In this document: positions 719 through 9,419 of the stretch, piece after piece
Layout of the letters: each line of letters opens with the position of its first letter
Numbering within the stretch: the stretch's first letter is position 1
Assembly: GCA_001803565.1 (NCBI GenBank)
Contig: MHDQ01000303.1
Location: 771 to 12,677 of the forward strand
Reading direction: 5' to 3'
Length of the DNA: 11,907 nucleotides
DNA from: Nitrospinae bacterium RIFCSPLOWO2_12_FULL_45_22
GTDB lineage: Bacteria; 2-12-FULL-45-22
Made by a program: the position numbers and the translations under genes
Notes under the pieces: model-generated
Told to the model about the DNA's origin: nothing
Database searches by the model: none
Seen by the model: only the letters and a program-made list of their open reading frames with translations

Positions 719-2473
719 TCACTTCCCAGGAATAAATATAGAAGCTATATTCTTTATTATCAGATTTATTATCAGCAGTATAGTTTTTCCGATAATTTTC
801 AAATCGAGCATAAGGGACCTGTTTTTCACATAGTCTGGATCAGCCTGTAGCCACGCATGAAAGGACCTATTTATTCGTCCATACATCTGCCACAGGCCTG
901 TAATTCCGGGTTTAACCTTTAACCTGATATCTCTCCATCTTGGATTTAAACCCATCTCTTCCATGGGTAAGGGGCGTGGCCCAACAAGGCTCATATCTCC
1001 CCTGAGCACATTAAATAACTGGGGAAGCTCATCTAGACCGGTTTTGTTGATTACCTTCCCAACCTTAGTGAACCTTGGATCATCTTCGATTTTAAACATT
1101 GGACCATCCACTTCATTCATATGCCTAAGGGATAATTTAAGATGCTCGGCATTTTCGACCATAGAGCGAAACTTATATAATTTGAACTCCCGCCCCCCTT
1201 CTCCACATCTGATCTGGGTAAAGAACACAGGGCCCGAGGATTCAATTTTTATGGCAAGCCCTATTACCAGAAATAAGGGGAAAAATATAAGAAGTCCCAC
1301 CCCTGATACGATCTTGTCAATGGCAAGCTTCATGACCGTGTAAAGTCCCGTGAAAATTCTCTTTATGAGTAAATGCGTTGGGTCAATAGATAAAGTTAGC
1401 CCAGAGTTCACGGAATCTAGAGATAATACACCGATCCGCGAACCATTATCCAAATACACTGTATTGTTTAGGTATGTTCCCGGTGGGACCCGCGTACCTT
1501 CTGCCAGAACCGAATTCTCCACTCTAGCTTTTTGTGAAACAACGGAGCCTGGCATAATAAGGCTTGCAATTACCTCGGCATCAGGAGCAACATAAGATCC
1601 ATCCCTAATGACAGAAGGGCCAATAATCACGGCCTTATTATCGATGTGGCTATTCGGGCCTATAATTAACGGCCCCAAAATGAATGCCGAGGAAGATATG
1701 GTGGAATTCTCACCGACCCAGACCTTGCTCCTTAGTTCTCTATAAGGTTGGAAATCATCCGGCTTGGCATTCCGGAGCATCTCCCAGTTTATAGACACAT
1801 AGTCATTCAGGGTTATAAGCTTTCTGCACGCACCATTTATCTTCCATACCCATATTGAATGACCGCTCTTTTGAAGGAGGGGGAGCAACTGCTCTTTAAT
1901 ATCAAAGTATCGCCCACCCTCGATATAATCCAGCACAGTCGGTTCAAAGAGATATAATCCATAGCTTTCGACCTGTCTCCGCCTCTCCTTTGATTTATGG
2001 GCACGATAGATATCAAGCATCCTGCCATCTTCGGAAATTATCCAATTTTCTTTTTGCCCAAGCTCTGTATCATAGTTTATTACTCCAACCGTAGCCATGG
2101 CAGACTTTCTCTGATGGAACTCTACCAGACTCTTTAGGTCGAAATTAAGGAGGGTAGAACCCTCGACTACCAAGAAGGGTTCTTTGGAGAGATAACTACG
2201 AGCATTTTGTAAGGAGCCCGCAGTTCCCATGAGATATGGCGCCCAAAAATAAGAAATCCTAACCCCAAAGACGGACCCATCCCCCAGATAATCCGCTATA
2301 GTCCGCTGTCCCTCATTAAGGCAGAATAATATCTCTTTTATTCCGGACTTTTTCAAGAACTCGATATTATGCGCTATAAAAGGTTTCGTTCCAAGAGGGA
2401 GCATTATCTTTGGGTAATTTGGTTTGATTGGCAAATCTGTTCCCAAGCCTCCAAAAATTATCACCGCTTTCAT
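719..2473 (-). CDS. Nucleotidyltransferase-like / hexapeptide / undecaprenyl-phosphate sugar phosphotransferase fusion
   Basis: 584 residues in three parts. Residues 1-235 have the sugar-1-phosphate nucleotidyltransferase fold: GGLGTD (8-13), PK (21-22) and GTAG (83-86). About 250-345 are left-handed beta-helix hexapeptide-type repeats. About 378-584 form a bacterial sugar transferase (PglC/WcaJ catalytic domain) with a hydrophobic membrane segment (about 392-409), GPVFFTQ, YKFRSM (433-438), the catalytic DE pair in LDELPQL (D481, E482), SLVGPRP (495-501) and PGITGLWQ (522-529). The C-terminal domain should load the first sugar phosphate onto undecaprenyl phosphate at the inner membrane, initiating repeat-unit synthesis. 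The N-terminal domain looks inactive. D13 replaces the GTRL arginine, S106 replaces the GD metal aspartate, and the later DIGTP aspartate is replaced within KLITL (218-222). The N-terminal four-helix membrane module of WcaJ is absent; the NTase-like domain occupies its place. ATG start with GGAAGAGGG; 16 nt after the CpsD-like gene. Confidence 0.92.
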   Translation of the reverse strand: MKAVIIFGGLGTDLPIKPNYPKIMLPLGTKPFIAHNIEFLKKSGIKEILFCLNEGQRTIADYLGDGSVFGVRISYFWAPYLMGTAGSLQNARSYLSKEPFLVVEGSTLLNFDLKSLVEFHQRKSAMATVGVINYDTELGQKENWIISEDGRMLDIYRAHKSKERRRQVESYGLYLFEPTVLDYIEGGRYFDIKEQLLPLLQKSGHSIWVWKINGACRKLITLNDYVSINWEMLRNAKPDDFQPYRELRSKVWVGENSTISSSAFILGPLIIGPNSHIDNKAVIIGPSVIRDGSYVAPDAEVIASLIMPGSVVSQKARVENSVLAEGTRVPPGTYLNNTVYLDNGSRIGVLSLDSVNSGLTLSIDPTHLLIKRIFTGLYTVMKLAIDKIVSGVGLLIFFPLFLVIGLAIKIESSGPVFFTQIRCGEGGREFKLYKFRSMVENAEHLKLSLRHMNEVDGPMFKIEDDPRFTKVGKVINKTGLDELPQLFNVLRGDMSLVGPRPLPMEEMGLNPRWRDIRLKVKPGITGLWQMYGRINRSFHAWLQADPDYVKNRSLMLDLKIIGKTILLIINLIIKNIASIFIPGK

Positions 2474-2489: not shown

Positions 2490-3212
2490 TCATATTAGCC
2501 TTCGATATATGGATTCAGGGATATAGTGTCGCCTCTTATTTATCACCACGCCAACAATGCGTGCTCCCACTGTTTGTAAACTTTCCTTCGCTTTTAAGGC
2601 CACCTCTCTTCTAATCCGTTCAGACTCCACCACCAAGATGACTCCATCCATATACCTGGCTAGACCAAGGGAATCCGAATACATTAAGATTGACGCTGAA
2701 TCAATAATCAAAAATTGGTGTTTAGTACGGAGATAGGATAGGTAGTCCAGAATTTTTTTTGTTTCAAAAATACTCTCCCCGCTTGTAGAAGGGTTGCCGC
2801 TTGTAACAACAAAGAGATTTTCCACACCTGTTTTTTTTATGGATGCCCAAGGTTCCACTTCACCGGATAACACATCGGCAAGGCCGTCCGCTCTCGGGAG
2901 GTCAAAGAATTCATGAACAGAAGGGGATCTCAAATTAGCATCAACTATTACTACCGATTTGTTCAGAGATAGGGCCAGAATGCGAGCGAGAGAACATGCT
3001 ATGGTAGAACACCCCTCATACCTTAAAGCGCTGCACATTAGATAGGCCTTCCCTTCACTTTCGGGCAAATTAAGAATAAGGTTTTTGCTGATCCTTTCCA
3101 TGGCATCATTTATCCCTTCCGGTAAGCGATGCTTTTTTGTTCGGTTAGTAAAGCCTCTCTCTTTGATGAGATTAGATTTGAAAAATACGTTATCTTCCCT
3201 CCAAACTTTCAA
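2490..3212 (-). CDS. CpsD/CapB-like P-loop protein with degenerate Walker A (BY-kinase family)
   Basis: 240 residues matching the cytoplasmic domain of bacterial tyrosine kinases that partner Wzz/GumC-type membrane proteins. The Walker A region reads RYEGCST (64-70): the usual GEGKST lysine is Cys68 (codon TGT, two base changes from any Lys codon). The Walker A' motif is VDANLR (D91 kept, the second Asp is N93). The Walker B strand LIID ends at D171 but is followed by SAS rather than the usual TPP. The C-terminus has only two tyrosines (Y230, Y236), not a tyrosine cluster. Together these suggest weak or absent kinase activity and perhaps a structural or regulatory role in polymer length control. 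Related P-loop-degenerate homologues may exist in EPS loci, so this could be a subfamily trait. The gene sits 75 nt downstream of the Wzz-like gene and 16 nt upstream of the sugar transferase fusion. The start is TTG. Confidence 0.85.
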   Translation of the reverse strand: MKVWREDNVFFKSNLIKERGFTNRTKKHRLPEGINDAMERISKNLILNLPESEGKAYLMCSALRYEGCSTIACSLARILALSLNKSVVIVDANLRSPSVHEFFDLPRADGLADVLSGEVEPWASIKKTGVENLFVVTSGNPSTSGESIFETKKILDYLSYLRTKHQFLIIDSASILMYSDSLGLARYMDGVILVVESERIRREVALKAKESLQTVGARIVGVVINKRRHYIPESIYRRLI

Positions 3213-3287: not shown

Positions 3288-4805
3288 TCAAACCTCTGGC
3301 ACCGAGCCGAGTGTAGGCAAACCGAGATATTGACTCACATCCTCACTTTTCTTAATGGTATGGTCCATATACTCGAGGGTGTATATCAGGGCGAAAGACC
3401 CGAATAACGCTGCCACAACAGCGATATAAAAATATAACTTTTTCATGGGTTTTACGGGATGGATCTTGAATGAAGCAGGGCTAACAATTCTCAGGTTTAT
3501 AACCCTCTTGTCTTTAGCGGCCGAGACCCTTTCCTCATCCCTTTTCTTTATGAGGAGTGATAAGGTATTTTCTTCTTCCCCAACAGCTTGCTCAAGCTTC
3601 TTTATATTATCCCTTTTATGAGGCAACTCCCCAAGCTCCCCACTCAATTCGGCCAGTGTCCCCTCAAGTGCCTTTTTTTCAGCCTTTAAGGTAGCCAGCG
3701 AACTTTCGTGCAGCCGGATCATCCCAAAAACCTCTTCCCTCAATTTCCTCTCAATTTCTCTAATCTCAAACATATTATCTTGCATCAGCCTATCCTCAGC
3801 CGTATATTTTGCGCTGAGGTTAGCACGAACTACTTTCAGCTCCACAAGCTTTGAATAAATCTTATCTACCGAACGCATTTGGAGGATATCGAGGGAGGGG
3901 ATAGCTATTTCTCGGTTGGTTTGCAAGAGTTCTTTCATCTTCATCAACTTTGCTTCCTTGCTCACTATATCTTTATTCACTGTGGTGTAAGCCCGGTCGA
4001 AGTTGGAATATTTCTCTAAGAGAAGCGCCTCCTGCTTCTCATAAGAAATCATACCCTCTTTTTTTTGATAATCGCTAAGCCTTGCCCTGAGCTCATCTAG
4101 CTTCTGCCGGGAGAATTCTATTTGTTCATCGAAGAAACTCCTTGCTTTTGGTAGCTGTTCTACCTGAAGCCTATGAGCTATATAATAGTTGACGAGGTCA
4201 TCCACAACCGGGAGCGCCTTGTTTGGGTTCGCTGAGTAAAGTTTTAACTCGATAATGTCTGAGTCCCTTACAGGTTCAACCCTGAGAAACTTCTTATTTT
4301 TCAGCAATTCAATCCTGTTCTCCAAATCAAAAAAGGCTATCTCCTCGGGACTCGGCCTGCGAATCAGGCCGGAAATATAAAGGCGCTCTCTCGAGACTCT
4401 CTTAACCTCTGAGTACAACCTCAATGGCATACCGATCACATACTTAACAGCCCTGCGGAAGGCAGATGGGTCACGATTCAATATATCCTCCAAGTCAGGA
4501 TGAACTCTTGCCATCTTCTCAAGCACAGGGTGGCTTTTTATTATCTCGATCTCGGAGTTGATTTCCTCCTCCCTCTCCTTCAACATTAAACGGCCAGCTT
4601 CAGGTGAAATGGAGGCCCTTACTTTCCCTTCTCGCTCTACATAAATTGAAGAGGTTACAAGATATCTAGGCGTCATTATCGAAAGGGCGGCATAGGCCGC
4701 AGCAATGAGTGATAGCCCAAAACCTAAAAGGGTATGCTTTCTTTTAAAAATCACATATAACAAATCCCTTGTTGAAAGCTGAGCATCCCTAATTTCATTA
4801 GCCAT
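3288..4805 (-). CDS. Wzz/GumC-type polysaccharide chain-length determinant (co-polymerase)
   Basis: About 505 residues from the ATG at 4805. A transmembrane helix lies near residues 27-45, followed by a long periplasmic region rich in Glu/Lys/Arg with coiled-coil character (about 230-440). A second transmembrane helix sits about 465-484 (YFYIAVVAALFGSFALIYTL), preceded by the proline-rich HPVKPMKK typical of Wzz proteins. The protein ends in LGLPTLGSVPEV, exactly where fused BY-kinases continue into the kinase domain; here that domain is the separate downstream gene, so this is the membrane adaptor of a split pair. It should span the inner membrane, set polymer chain length and contact the outer-membrane exporter. 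A TTG two codons upstream (4811) also opens the frame, but the ribosome site favours the ATG. It starts 11 nt after the exporter gene. Confidence 0.93.
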   Translation of the reverse strand: MANEIRDAQLSTRDLLYVIFKRKHTLLGFGLSLIAAAYAALSIMTPRYLVTSSIYVEREGKVRASISPEAGRLMLKEREEEINSEIEIIKSHPVLEKMARVHPDLEDILNRDPSAFRRAVKYVIGMPLRLYSEVKRVSRERLYISGLIRRPSPEEIAFFDLENRIELLKNKKFLRVEPVRDSDIIELKLYSANPNKALPVVDDLVNYYIAHRLQVEQLPKARSFFDEQIEFSRQKLDELRARLSDYQKKEGMISYEKQEALLLEKYSNFDRAYTTVNKDIVSKEAKLMKMKELLQTNREIAIPSLDILQMRSVDKIYSKLVELKVVRANLSAKYTAEDRLMQDNMFEIREIERKLREEVFGMIRLHESSLATLKAEKKALEGTLAELSGELGELPHKRDNIKKLEQAVGEEENTLSLLIKKRDEERVSAAKDKRVINLRIVSPASFKIHPVKPMKKLYFYIAVVAALFGSFALIYTLEYMDHTIKKSEDVSQYLGLPTLGSVPEV

Positions 4806-4812
4806 TCTCAAA

Positions 4813-4818
4813 TCCTTT
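4813..4818 (-). promoter_or_regulatory. Ribosome binding site deciding the Wzz-like start
   Basis: Minus strand reads AAAGGA, seven bases, then ATG at 4805-4803. The upstream TTG at 4811 would lie only one base from this site, too close, so the ATG is preferred. The site overlaps the stop codon of the exporter gene, suggesting translational coupling. Confidence 0.5.
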
Positions 4819-5821
4819 AATCATTATCATTGAGAAGAAAAGAAAACCCCACACCAAGATTTGGCGGGAGAAATTTATAAATATATTGCTCAACAAAAAT
4901 GTTCACTTTATTTATGGTAGTTTTGGGCACATATACCACGTCATACGGCTGAAGAGGCACATCTTTGGTTATATCACCACTCGAGAGGACTTCGCTAAGA
5001 TCCACCCTCATGGGCAAAGGCTTGCCATCCCTCCCTTTCCGAATTAACAAAACACTTTTCAGCTTGGCCGAATCCTTGTATCCTCCAGCAAAGCTAACAG
5101 CCTGCAATGCTCCAACATACCTGGGCATGGGATATATACCCGGCTTTTCAACCTCGCCGAGAACCAATACCTGACGGCTTTCGGCACCAGTTAAAATCAC
5201 CGTTGTACCAAGGCTAGGGAACCGGCTAGAATATTTACTGGAAATCTCATTATTGAGCTCTTCAACAGTCAGTCCCGCTGCTTTTATGTCGCCAATCATG
5301 GGCAGGTTAAGATACCCATCTGCTCTAATAATAGCCCTTGTTCGCTGCTTTGATTCTTCACTTTCCAGCGACACAAACATCTCGTCCAGAGGTGTATGAA
5401 ATCTTGTGACACTCACTGAAATTTCAGGATTTTTGAGGGTGTAGGAATATTTATTCTCAAGATAATTCGATGCTTCGATAGGGGTAAGACCTAGAAGCAC
5501 TACTTCCCCTATTCTTTGAAGATATACTTTTCCATCCGGCCTCATCGCTACTTTGCAGTTTATATCAGGGTGGGAAGACGAAATTACTTCTATCTCATCT
5601 TTCACATTCAGGCGGTAGTATGGGTCGCCTTTACTGTAATCTCTAAAATAGAGGACATCAACCACGTCTCCTATCCCAAGAATATATTTGTTCTTATTCA
5701 AGGGAGTAATTAAGCCATTAGTTTCATACGAGGCCTTACCTTTAGACCCCGCACATCCAAAAAACCCTCCCATAGCCACGCTAAGACATAGAAAAGAAAG
5801 GGTAATAAACCTCAGTCCCAT
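4817..5821 (-). CDS. Wza-like polysaccharide export outer-membrane lipoprotein
   Basis: 334 residues. An N-terminal signal sequence ends at Cys23 in GGFFGC, a somewhat atypical lipobox, consistent with a lipoprotein. Residues about 45-145 form the Poly_export domain (YILGIGDVVDV; MRPDGKVYLQRIGEV). A second such unit follows (IRADGYLNLPMIGDIKAAG, about 165-215), then an SLBB-type domain from about 220 (VLVLGEVEKPGIYPM ... LQAVSFAGGY) ending near DVVYVPKT. The C-terminal stretch around FVEQYIYKFLPP could be the membrane-crossing helix seen in Wza (inference). The protein should form the outer-membrane channel through which the polymer leaves. It is the first gene of the operon; the ATG is preceded by AAGGGG at eight bases. 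The stop is 11 nt before the Wzz-like ATG. A sigma-54 promoter lies about 420 bp upstream. Confidence 0.93.
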   Translation of the reverse strand: MGLRFITLSFLCLSVAMGGFFGCAGSKGKASYETNGLITPLNKNKYILGIGDVVDVLYFRDYSKGDPYYRLNVKDEIEVISSSHPDINCKVAMRPDGKVYLQRIGEVVLLGLTPIEASNYLENKYSYTLKNPEISVSVTRFHTPLDEMFVSLESEESKQRTRAIIRADGYLNLPMIGDIKAAGLTVEELNNEISSKYSSRFPSLGTTVILTGAESRQVLVLGEVEKPGIYPMPRYVGALQAVSFAGGYKDSAKLKSVLLIRKGRDGKPLPMRVDLSEVLSSGDITKDVPLQPYDVVYVPKTTINKVNIFVEQYIYKFLPPNLGVGFSFLLNDND

Positions 5822-6520: not shown

Positions 6521-6838
6521 TCAGGGCAATTTGATCAGGTAGTTAGGTTCGGCATATTCTACCTCGGGTAATTGCTGATATTTATTTATCATGTCTTCGA
6601 CAGATGTATCCTCTGAGATCTCAATCAGGTAGAGATTTTGTTTAGCAATATATCTTATTACTTTGCTCCCGAATTTATTATTAATTTTATCAACCTCTTC
6701 TTGAGAAATTAGGGGTTTAAATTTCACCAAGAGCTGATCAGGCTCATATTCGCCATTTTTTGCTGGCACAATTGACCTATCAGTACAGACAATTACCGAT
6801 AAGATAAGGCAGGTGGATATTATCGCCCTTAGCACCAT
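6521..6838 (-). CDS. Small secreted protein made only of a subtilase propeptide-like (I9/fervidolysin-type) domain
   Basis: 105 residues. A hydrophobic N-terminus (about 1-18) looks like a signal peptide without a convincing lipobox. Residues about 31-103 resemble the N-terminal prodomain of S8 (subtilisin-like) proteases: YEPDQLLVKFKP, a helix with EEVDKINNKFG, NLYLIEI, and the closing PEVEYAEPNY. In a protease the catalytic domain would begin just after this last motif; here the frame ends four residues later (LIKLP) and the following DNA shows no protease sequence. It may be a stand-alone protease inhibitor or chaperone, or the surviving 5' end of a truncated protease gene. The intact signal, strong ribosome site (AGGTGGAGG) and ATG favour a functional small gene. 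It is transcribed away from the mobile elements, toward the operon control region. Confidence 0.7.
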   Translation of the reverse strand: MVLRAIISTCLILSVIVCTDRSIVPAKNGEYEPDQLLVKFKPLISQEEVDKINNKFGSKVIRYIAKQNLYLIEISEDTSVEDMINKYQQLPEVEYAEPNYLIKLP

Positions 6839-7319: not shown

Positions 7320-8231
7320 CTATCCAGGTTTATATAGCGCAAAGATGTTCTCGCGAATCTCTCTGAATAGAGTATAGCTCCCCCAGCCTCCAGCAATCTT
7401 AAGGATAACCCTTCTGCCATGCTTAACCACCCGGGCTGCGGTCTCAAACAGCCTCCAGCGAAAGGTTGCTACCGTATAATACATCCACTCTGGAGGGCAG
7501 CACAAGCGTTTAAAGCCAATCAAGACATTGTAGGCAATACTGGCCAAGCGATACCACACTGCATTGGCATAACGCCCAGAGGGCACCCGACCACAGGGCA
7601 GGGTCTCTAAACCAAAGCCGATCTTGGATTCTTTGATATAATTTTCTGCATTCCCTCGGCCATTGTGCCACTCCATAACCTCCTCTGGAGCCCATTTCTC
7701 CGCTAAATTGGTGGCTACGGCATGATGACGTTCCTTGGGTTTATCCCCCCATAAATTCAACTGTAGCTCTCTTTCTTTGATCACAATCAGGCGAAAGGCC
7801 TCCTTGGTATGCTCCAACCCCCTAAGCCCTTTTGCCCCCTTAGCAGGATCCCCCATCCGGCGCAACCAGTCCCCCGTGGCCGATACTGAAGGAACCTCAT
7901 ACCTCAAGAGCTTCTTTAATCCCTTATCCCTCTCTAATATCCGCAGATCCTCTATGCGCCTGCCACCTCCAGGATGCATCAGGATTATAGGTTCGCCATA
8001 CCCTGCTCCTTGCCTGCCTCGTCCACTACCAGGCCGGGGAAGCTCTTGCTCTAAGTCCCGATGTAACCCAAGCCCATGCATGTATTCTGCTATCAAGGCT
8101 AATCCCGCCCTGGGTGTTAATACCTCATCTGTCATCTCTAGCTTGAAAGGTAAAACAGTTTGTTGTATCATATCTCTCAGTCCTCTTGGGTTTAAGGTTT
8201 GTGCTTTCACCTCGTGGGTGAATACTTTCAA
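7320..8231 (-). pseudogene. IS1380-family transposase with in-frame central deletion
   Basis: 303 residues, against roughly 430-480 for the family. The N-terminal part is typical: EVLTPRAGLALIAEYMHGLGL (start 36), GGGRRIEDLR (88-97) and TGDWLRRMGDP (119-129). The C-terminal part is also typical: KEAFRLIVIKE (143-153), HAVATNL, EWHNGRGNAEN (187-197), IKESKIGFG (199-207), LPCGR, AYNVLIGFKRL and ATFRWRLFETAARVVKHGRR. The junction near residues 130-142 (around nucleotide 7810-7840) skips the section that normally carries the first two catalytic aspartates. The glutamate region (E196 or E201) remains. The protein therefore should not transpose on its own, though the element could be moved by a full-length transposase elsewhere. 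The frame opens at a TTG (8231); an ATG at 8171 (residue 21) is an alternative start. There is no frameshift, so the deletion is clean. Confidence 0.85.
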
Positions 8232-8381: not shown

Positions 8382-8909
8382 AGTATCCTGGAGGAAAATA
8401 ATCTTCAACCTGAAGAAATTGCGAAGATAGAGGTATTCATTGATCCGCTGGTGACTTTGCCAGCCTGGGGGGTGAATGAGCTGCAAAGCCATGTAGATGC
8501 CCAGTTCTGTGCCCCATATCCCTTTGCGGCTGCCGCTTTCCGGCTGAAGAGCGGTGCTGAATGGCAAGCCCCGGCTACCCTCAATAATCCCCAAATAATG
8601 GAGTTTATGAAGAAGATTTCGGTAGAGGCACATCCAGAATATGGTAAGGCATTAGCTGAAGACCCCAGGAGCCCCTTGTCTAAAGTTGAGGTAATAGCCC
8701 GGGGCCGGAAGTACGTCGAGGAGCGGAATTGGAAAAAAGGGAATCCCTGGCCGGACAAGGCCCGGGTGAGTGATCAGGAGCTGGCAGCAAAGTTCTGTAA
8801 TAATACCTCCCCTATATTACCAAAGGAAAAAATTGATCTAGCTATTGAACATCTGCTTAATCTGGAAAGATTAACCAATATAACAGAATTAATAACCCAA
8901 CTTGTATGA
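8382..8909 (+). pseudogene. MmgE/PrpD family protein, 5'-truncated (C-terminal domain only)
   Basis: The frame is open from 8358 to the TGA at 8907-8909, and recognisable family sequence starts near ILEENNLQPEEIAKIEVFID (from about 8385). It continues through the C-terminal domain of the MmgE/PrpD (2-methylcitrate dehydratase / cis-aconitate decarboxylase-type) family: AQFCAPYPFAAAAF, an EVEA/ISVEAHPE strand, PLSKVEVIARGRKYVEER, KGNPWP, then LAAKFCNNTSPILP and a C-terminal helix. Family members are about 450-500 residues; only about 175 remain. The large N-terminal helical domain is missing and is not found on the other side of the mobile element, so this is a remnant. The first ATG (8475) lies inside the domain with no good ribosome site. 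The break coincides with the outer element's right border. Confidence 0.8.
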
Positions 8910-8993: not shown

Positions 8994-9419
8994 ATGAAGG
9001 ATGCCCGGAAATTCGGTGTAAATATACAAAAAGAAAAGGCATTACAGGAGAAGATGGAAGAGCTAGGTGTGCGGGAGCAAGACCTGGTAGAAAAATTTAT
9101 TCGCTCGAGCGGTCCTGGCGGGCAAAAGACTAACAAAGTAGCTACTTGTGTCTACTTGAAGCATATCCCTAGCGGTATAGAAGTCAAAGTCCAACGAGAG
9201 CGCTCTCAGACCCTGAATCGGTTCCTGGCCAGACGCCTGATAGTAGAGAAGATAGAAAATGAGCTATTGGGCAGACTAAGTGCCGAGCAACAACTCCGCG
9301 AGAAAATTCGCCGCCAAAAACGTAAACGCTCCAAGCGCGCCAAAGAAAAAATCCTTCAGCAGAAAAAATTGCAATCCCATAAAAAACTCCTCCGTACCCC
9401 ACCCGGCCCGGATGAATAG
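8994..9419 (+). CDS. GGQ-domain peptide chain release factor-like protein (ribosome rescue type)
   Basis: 141 residues. The core RSSGPGGQKTNKVATCVYL has the GGQ triplet at 42-44, which in class I release factors and ArfB-like hydrolases enters the peptidyl-transferase centre and cuts the peptidyl-tRNA ester. The codon-recognition domains of RF1/RF2 are absent. The C-terminal tail (about 100-130) is strongly basic, with many Lys/Arg (EKIRRQKRKRSKRAKEKILQ), like the tail by which ArfB senses an empty mRNA channel. A role in freeing stalled ribosomes is likely by family; the exact subgroup (ArfB, or the mtRF-R/C12orf65-like set) is uncertain. An in-frame stop at 8919 excludes a much earlier start. 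ATG at 8994 keeps the N-terminal segment (KALQEKMEELGVREQDL) that I expect in the family; ATG at 9054 after AGGAG is an alternative. It lies 84 bp after the MmgE/PrpD remnant and converges on the next gene. Confidence 0.85.
   Translation: MKDARKFGVNIQKEKALQEKMEELGVREQDLVEKFIRSSGPGGQKTNKVATCVYLKHIPSGIEVKVQRERSQTLNRFLARRLIVEKIENELLGRLSAEQQLREKIRRQKRKRSKRAKEKILQQKKLQSHKKLLRTPPGPDE

Follow-up and report, generated by a model that had tools for sequence, protein, structure and literature searches.

Nucleotide sugars and undecaprenyl phosphate have to be rationed among competing glycan pathways, and accessory domains on the initiating phosphoglycosyl transferases (PGTs) are one proposed answer. The large monotopic PGTs (WbaP, WcaJ, and EpsZ; TIGR03025 group) carry such an additional N-terminal part. 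In WbaP, the DUF within this part binds uridine nucleotides, dimerizes through contacts that come mostly from the DUF itself, and has been proposed to regulate the PGT (PMC10942596); control of activity through dimer formation has also been proposed for EpsZ (PMC12802240). A second group, the Bi-PGT class, has a soluble domain joined to the PGT core (PMC10942596). Proteins combining a nucleotidyltransferase (NT) fold with a left-handed β-helix (LbH) are also known as regulators: GMPPA binds GDP-mannose while lacking activity (PMC11228364), the GlgD protein of Firmicutes is inactive and modulatory (PMC9093745), and GMPP oligomers are mediated by LbH domains (PMC9168903). Here, we analyze a protein in which an NT-LbH module that has lost its catalytic residues is fused to a monotopic PGT, encoded in an 11,907-nucleotide stretch of a Nitrospinae genome (the window).

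The fusion gene lies on the minus strand at 719–2473, with an ATG start and its stop codon at 719–721, and encodes a 584-aa pseudo-NT, LbH, and monotopic PGT protein. The frame is open throughout, in agreement with a sequence-only reading of this DNA that had seen a clean gene free of frameshift decay at these coordinates. The 3.67-Mb draft source genome contains one full-length copy. The NT-fold domain spans residues 1–235 (1769–2473), as delimited by Pfam, AlphaFold, and structure matches; NTP_transferase (PF00483) matches residues 2–184 with 64.9 bits against a cutoff of 21.2. The LbH follows at residues ~245–348 (1430–1741), recognized from Pfam hexapeptide/LbH matches (about 248–348; Hexapep at 270–301) and from AlphaFold. 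The PGT domain (Bac_transf, PF02397) occupies residues 382–569 (767–1330) and scores 205.5 bits against a cutoff of 27, which assigns the protein to the monotopic PGT superfamily. Its catalytic dyad, D481-E482 (1028–1033), is intact, as had been read from the sequence, and invariant across a 21-row family alignment.

Hydropathy analysis indicates that the first strong hydrophobic stretch of the fusion protein coincides with the start of the PGT domain, which begins inside it; the stretch peaks within residues 380–418 and is a predicted re-entrant segment. No hydrophobic bundle precedes residue 380 in the window protein, whereas L002, an ordinary large PGT of the same genome, has four N-terminal segments. 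Pfam searches of the window protein and the scanned members gave no match to the four-helix bundle and PF13727 DUF of the large PGTs. From these sequence features and the predicted structure, the NT-LbH module occupies the place of that bundle and DUF. An Rfam search found no match within the window.

Structure prediction of the N-terminal module, a check proposed in the sequence-only reading, yielded a normal NT plus LbH fold. The AlphaFold model of residues 1–349 has a pLDDT of 84.8 and a pTM of 0.83; pLDDT is low in the presumed phosphate-contacting loops (near residues 9–18 and 161–164). The full-length model is of moderate confidence (pLDDT 70, pTM 0.51) and does not fix how the domains dock. 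Structure comparison of the 1–349 model returned VTC1 (7x8j; Z 34.0, 3.2 Å across 340 residues), tlr0611 (8x7s; Z 33.7), GMPPA/GMPPB (Z 33.4), and eIF2B (Z 32.9). The N-terminal half is best read, from its sequence and modeled fold, as a non-catalytic descendant of a GDP-mannose/UDP-glucose-pyrophosphorylase-like NT-LbH enzyme.

The loss of catalytic residues was examined by aligning 36 distinct fused NT domains with eight stand-alone NT controls and scoring five residues: the G-loop Arg, the PK Lys, the GD Asp, the EKP Lys, and the DIG Asp. In the window protein, D13 (2435–2437) stands at the G-loop Arg position, S106 (2156–2158) at the position of the GD metal Asp, and K218 (1820–1822) at that of the second metal Asp (DIG), all encoded on the minus strand. 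These columns confirm the three substitutions originally noticed, and a fourth, A158 in place of the EKP Lys, can be added, such that K22 (the PK Lys) is the only one of the five retained. Across the family, 20 of the 36 fused proteins retain none of the five residues, nine retain one, seven retain two, and none has three, whereas each stand-alone control keeps four or five; as judged from this alignment, the difference is far from chance. The EKP Lys is absent from every fused protein (0/36), and the DIG Asp survives in two of 36. At the GD position, none of the 30 members of the main set has Asp (Asn in 24, Ser in five, Gly in one), and six members of a related clade (L060–L065) have Asp (four) or Glu (two). 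The G-loop Arg survives in eight of the 30 main-set members, and in the Nitrospira members (L035, L036, and L052–L056) the G-loop region is mostly deleted while the remaining NT domain is conserved. Since the G-loop Arg and the GD Asp persist in some lineages, a uniform loss of all catalytic residues is ruled out. The earlier reading of this domain as inactive is supported at the level of the family, where the residues are lost throughout, and has to be qualified for individual substitutions, which vary. The alignment leaves the NT domain very probably without catalysis, and its pseudo-catalytic state is well supported.

Other parts of the domain are strongly conserved. The GTAG loop is retained, with G83 and G86 in all 36 proteins. 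Immediately past the lost EKP motif lies a family motif, H159-x-S161-x-x-x-R165-R166 (1976–1999, minus strand), in which H159 is found in 33 of 36 proteins, S161 in 29 of 30 of the main set, and R165 as Arg (32) or Lys (four), for a basic residue in 36 of 36. A second motif, D191-I-K-E-Q-L196 (1886–1903, minus strand), is located at the former sugar pocket; D191, E194, Q195, and L196 are invariant (36/36), and K193 is present in 30 of 36. In the RmlA-like control L007, the residues opposite DIKE are EITD, a stretch that in RmlA lines the sugar pocket. The alignment places H159, R165, D191, E194, and Q195 at the old sugar/phosphate pocket. The stand-alone relative 8x7s also carries D-I-x-x-Q-L-x-P, so that D191, Q195, and P198 could predate the family; in the same comparison, K193 and E194 seem specific to it. 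A stand-alone, strongly degenerate NT-LbH protein sharing a YFDIKEQLLP motif is encoded in a Planctomycete (Phycisphaerales; L045, 1909–2901). Its setting resembles an exosortase-type polysaccharide cluster, and its 6.8-kb contig contains no PGT.

The fusion architecture is found in at least 36 distinct proteins from several phyla. An initial search of GTDB contigs with the single NT domain as query gave no match; a four-row profile search of these contigs recovered 31 loci, most with the same fusion, and further members came from genome searches. Both Bac_transf and NTP_transferase matched in all 21 members scanned. Hosts include Nitrospirota, Schekmaniibacteriota, Abyssobacteria, and MAGs labeled Deltaproteobacteria, several of which are placed in Myxococcota by taxonomy lookup. 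Fusion carriers make up 11 of 295 sampled genomes in the phylum of G391, eight of 297 in the phylum of G393, and four of 386 diverse genomes, so the fusion is rare but widespread. Two genomes, G969 (L062 and L065) and G927 (L063 and L066), carry a pair of copies each; L066 comprises only part of the LbH plus the PGT in a frame of 319 aa. Close homologues with intact residues, which would have made the window protein a single degenerate copy, were found neither among the 36 fused proteins nor with an active-NT query of 386 genomes, and the family-wide loss rules that possibility out. That query, a chimera joining the active L005 NT to the window PGT, gave full-length matches only to the four known pseudo-fusions in the 386 genomes; no fusion with an intact NT, the expected ancestral type, was seen.

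Nine close pairs allowed an estimate of selection. Where computable, NT-domain dN/dS was 0.06–0.19 (one pair has a saturated dS), which is within the values obtained for the LbH and PGT domains, and rules out decay through relaxed selection where it could be measured. In most pairs, the protein sequence of the NT domain changes faster than that of the PGT domain. As judged from these codon comparisons, the NT domain is under purifying selection, and its catalysis-less state is family-wide and selected. In a tree of NT domains, the stand-alone enzymes fall on one side of a branch (support 98). The PGT tree also contained 14 non-fused PGTs, taken from the window and homologue genomes; a branch with support 94 separates all 33 fused sequences from them, and another (support 96) unites the window protein with L009, L010, and the L060–L066 clade. 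This pattern fits a single fusion event, with the EKP Lys and the DIG Asp disappearing early and the GD Asp being lost later and repeatedly.

Polysaccharide genes lie near the fusion. Upstream of the fusion, all on the minus strand, lie a BY-kinase-like ATPase (2490–3212; TIGR01007 at 104.4 bits, just below the cutoff of 108, and TIGR03018), a Wzz/GNVR chain-length protein (3288–4811), and a Poly_export/SLBB polysaccharide export protein (4817–5821), the last two assigned by domain matches. Downstream, on the same strand, is a B12-binding radical SAM gene (3–722), also identified from domain matches, whose 3′ part is cut by the window end and which is broken by a run of unknown contig bases that appear as X in the translation. 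Among 23 homologous loci, many of them short, Poly_export relatives occur in 17 and Wzz/kinase relatives in 15, and the B12 radical SAM gene occurs in only a few, so it is ruled out as a constant neighbor. Ten of the 23 loci have an AMP-ligase and a Zn-dehydrogenase near the fusion, always paired; the Zn-dehydrogenase of L018 (4924–6081) scores 533 bits against a cutoff of 450 for scyllo-inosose 3-dehydrogenase. From such matches, this pair hints at an inositol-related sugar or lipid part.

Several other genes of the window appear to be fragments or small proteins. An IS1380 transposase (7320–8231, minus strand) is apparently truncated, with residues 143–283 matching only the C-terminal part (284–419 of 419) of the model. 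Adjoining this remnant is an MmgE/PrpD gene (8451–8909, plus strand) that has kept only the C-terminal portion and is probably a gene remnant. The 105-aa product of 6521–6838 (minus strand) comprises little beyond a fervidolysin-type protease prodomain, and the protease is absent. A 141-aa RF-1-domain protein (8994–9419, plus strand) has peptide chain release factor H as its best match (60 bits against a cutoff of 167) and may be an ArfB/PrfH-like rescue factor.

Because catalysis has been lost while the fold, the selective constraint, and a newly conserved pocket are kept, we argue that the N-terminal module retains a non-enzymatic role. Family-wide residue loss under selection suggests that the module is an integral part for control or pairing and not a dead remnant. 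Our favored reading, which we hold at about an even chance, is that the NT-LbH is a dimerizing, ligand-sensing module on the PGT. The LbH would hold the PGT as a dimer, and the NT pocket, without metal ligands and with the H-x-S-x-x-x-R-R and DIKEQL motifs, would bind a nucleotide, nucleotide sugar, or sugar phosphate and perform no chemistry. Binding would alter PGT activity, so that polymer flux would follow the supply of precursor or product. This keeps, as a proposal, the suggestion of the sequence-only reading that an inactive module may deliver, sense, or gate the nucleotide sugar. A nucleotide may, however, bind unusually or not at all, since the G-loop varies across the family and has lost most of its length in Nitrospira. 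The low pLDDT of the phosphate-contacting loops, the weakly predicted domain docking, and the faster protein-level change of the NT domain also count against this reading. More tentatively, these proteins may constitute a class of self-regulated PGTs in which a dead NT active site has been rebuilt into a ligand-sensing pocket, with precursor or product gating the first committed membrane step. Residues 1–349 are a predicted soluble, well-folded domain with named conserved residues, and are thus directly testable.

Three other explanations rank behind a dimerizing and sensing module. The NT-LbH could be purely structural, forming PGT dimers or docking cluster partners (Wzz or the kinase) with no small-molecule ligand. 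The oligomers mediated by LbH domains in this fold family (PMC9168903), the predominance of DUF contacts in the WbaP dimer (PMC10942596), and a G-loop that is degenerate or absent in many members would all suit such a scaffold; however, the best-conserved family-specific residues (H159, R165, K193, E194, and Q195), some of which may be ancestral given 8x7s, cluster at the old sugar/phosphate pocket and would be unneeded by a pure scaffold. We rate this explanation as the likeliest of the three, though rather unlikely. We consider it improbable that the domain acts in trans in the manner of GMPPA or GlgD, pairing with an active NT encoded elsewhere and bringing it to the membrane for nucleotide-sugar synthesis next to the PGT. 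The fold matches GMPPA/GMPPB and eIF2B closely, and stand-alone NT-LbH genes whose GD and DIG residues are intact, such as L005, also occur in the window genome. Yet the active NT of the source genome sits on another contig, and no second NT gene lies near the fusion in any of the 23 homologous loci, which rules out an adjacent active partner. Least probable is that the NT domain itself retains enzymatic activity through other residues or a different chemistry: it preserves its fold and the GTAG loop, and the related clade keeps GD and PK, but the absence of the EKP Lys from every member, the near-absence of the DIG Asp, the missing GD Asp in the main set, and the unconserved G-loop all argue against it.

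The family resembles several known systems and differs from each. Like the large PGTs, the fusion proteins have the PGT catalytic domain, the DE dyad, a polysaccharide gene context, and an N-terminal extension akin to a nucleotide-sugar enzyme; unlike them, they carry an NT-LbH module in exchange for the four-helix bundle and DUF. As in Bi-PGTs, an extra soluble domain is joined to the PGT core, but here that domain lacks its catalytic residues, and the protein is therefore probably not bifunctional. Tlr0611 and VTC1, the closest solved relatives of residues 1–349, are stand-alone sugar-1-phosphate nucleotidyltransferases annotated as enzymes. The γ and ε subunits of eIF2B share the NT-like and LbH folds and a non-enzymatic role, and each of the 21 scanned members has a match to the LbH_EIF2B model, although the window protein itself scores below its cutoff; eIF2B is, however, a eukaryotic translation factor without a PGT. 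In combining NT and LbH without catalytic residues, the fusion resembles the regulatory pseudo-NTs GMPPA and GlgD. GMPPA has the same fold with catalysis lost and is known to sense a ligand, which is only proposed for the fusion; it regulates an active paralogue in trans, whereas the fusion module is joined to a presumed nucleotide-sugar consumer. GlgD is likewise a bacterial, inactive, and modulatory NT-LbH protein, but is a separate subunit that pairs with GlgC in a different pathway.

The sequence-only reading knew of no description of this design. That view holds for the exact pseudo-NT, LbH, and PGT fusion, which was not found in the literature searched (a PNAS 2021 survey of PGT fusions and networks lies outside this coverage), and is too broad for its elements, as regulatory non-catalytic NTs (GMPPA and GlgD) and the WbaP DUF were already known. 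PGTs with fused extra domains and pseudo-NTs are each familiar, and what appears new, within the literature searched, is their conserved combination. If these are indeed self-regulated PGTs, they would be convergent with the large PGTs and their dehydratase-related DUF, and an independent case of a catalysis-stripped nucleotide-sugar enzyme on a PGT would support the repeated recruitment of such folds as regulators.
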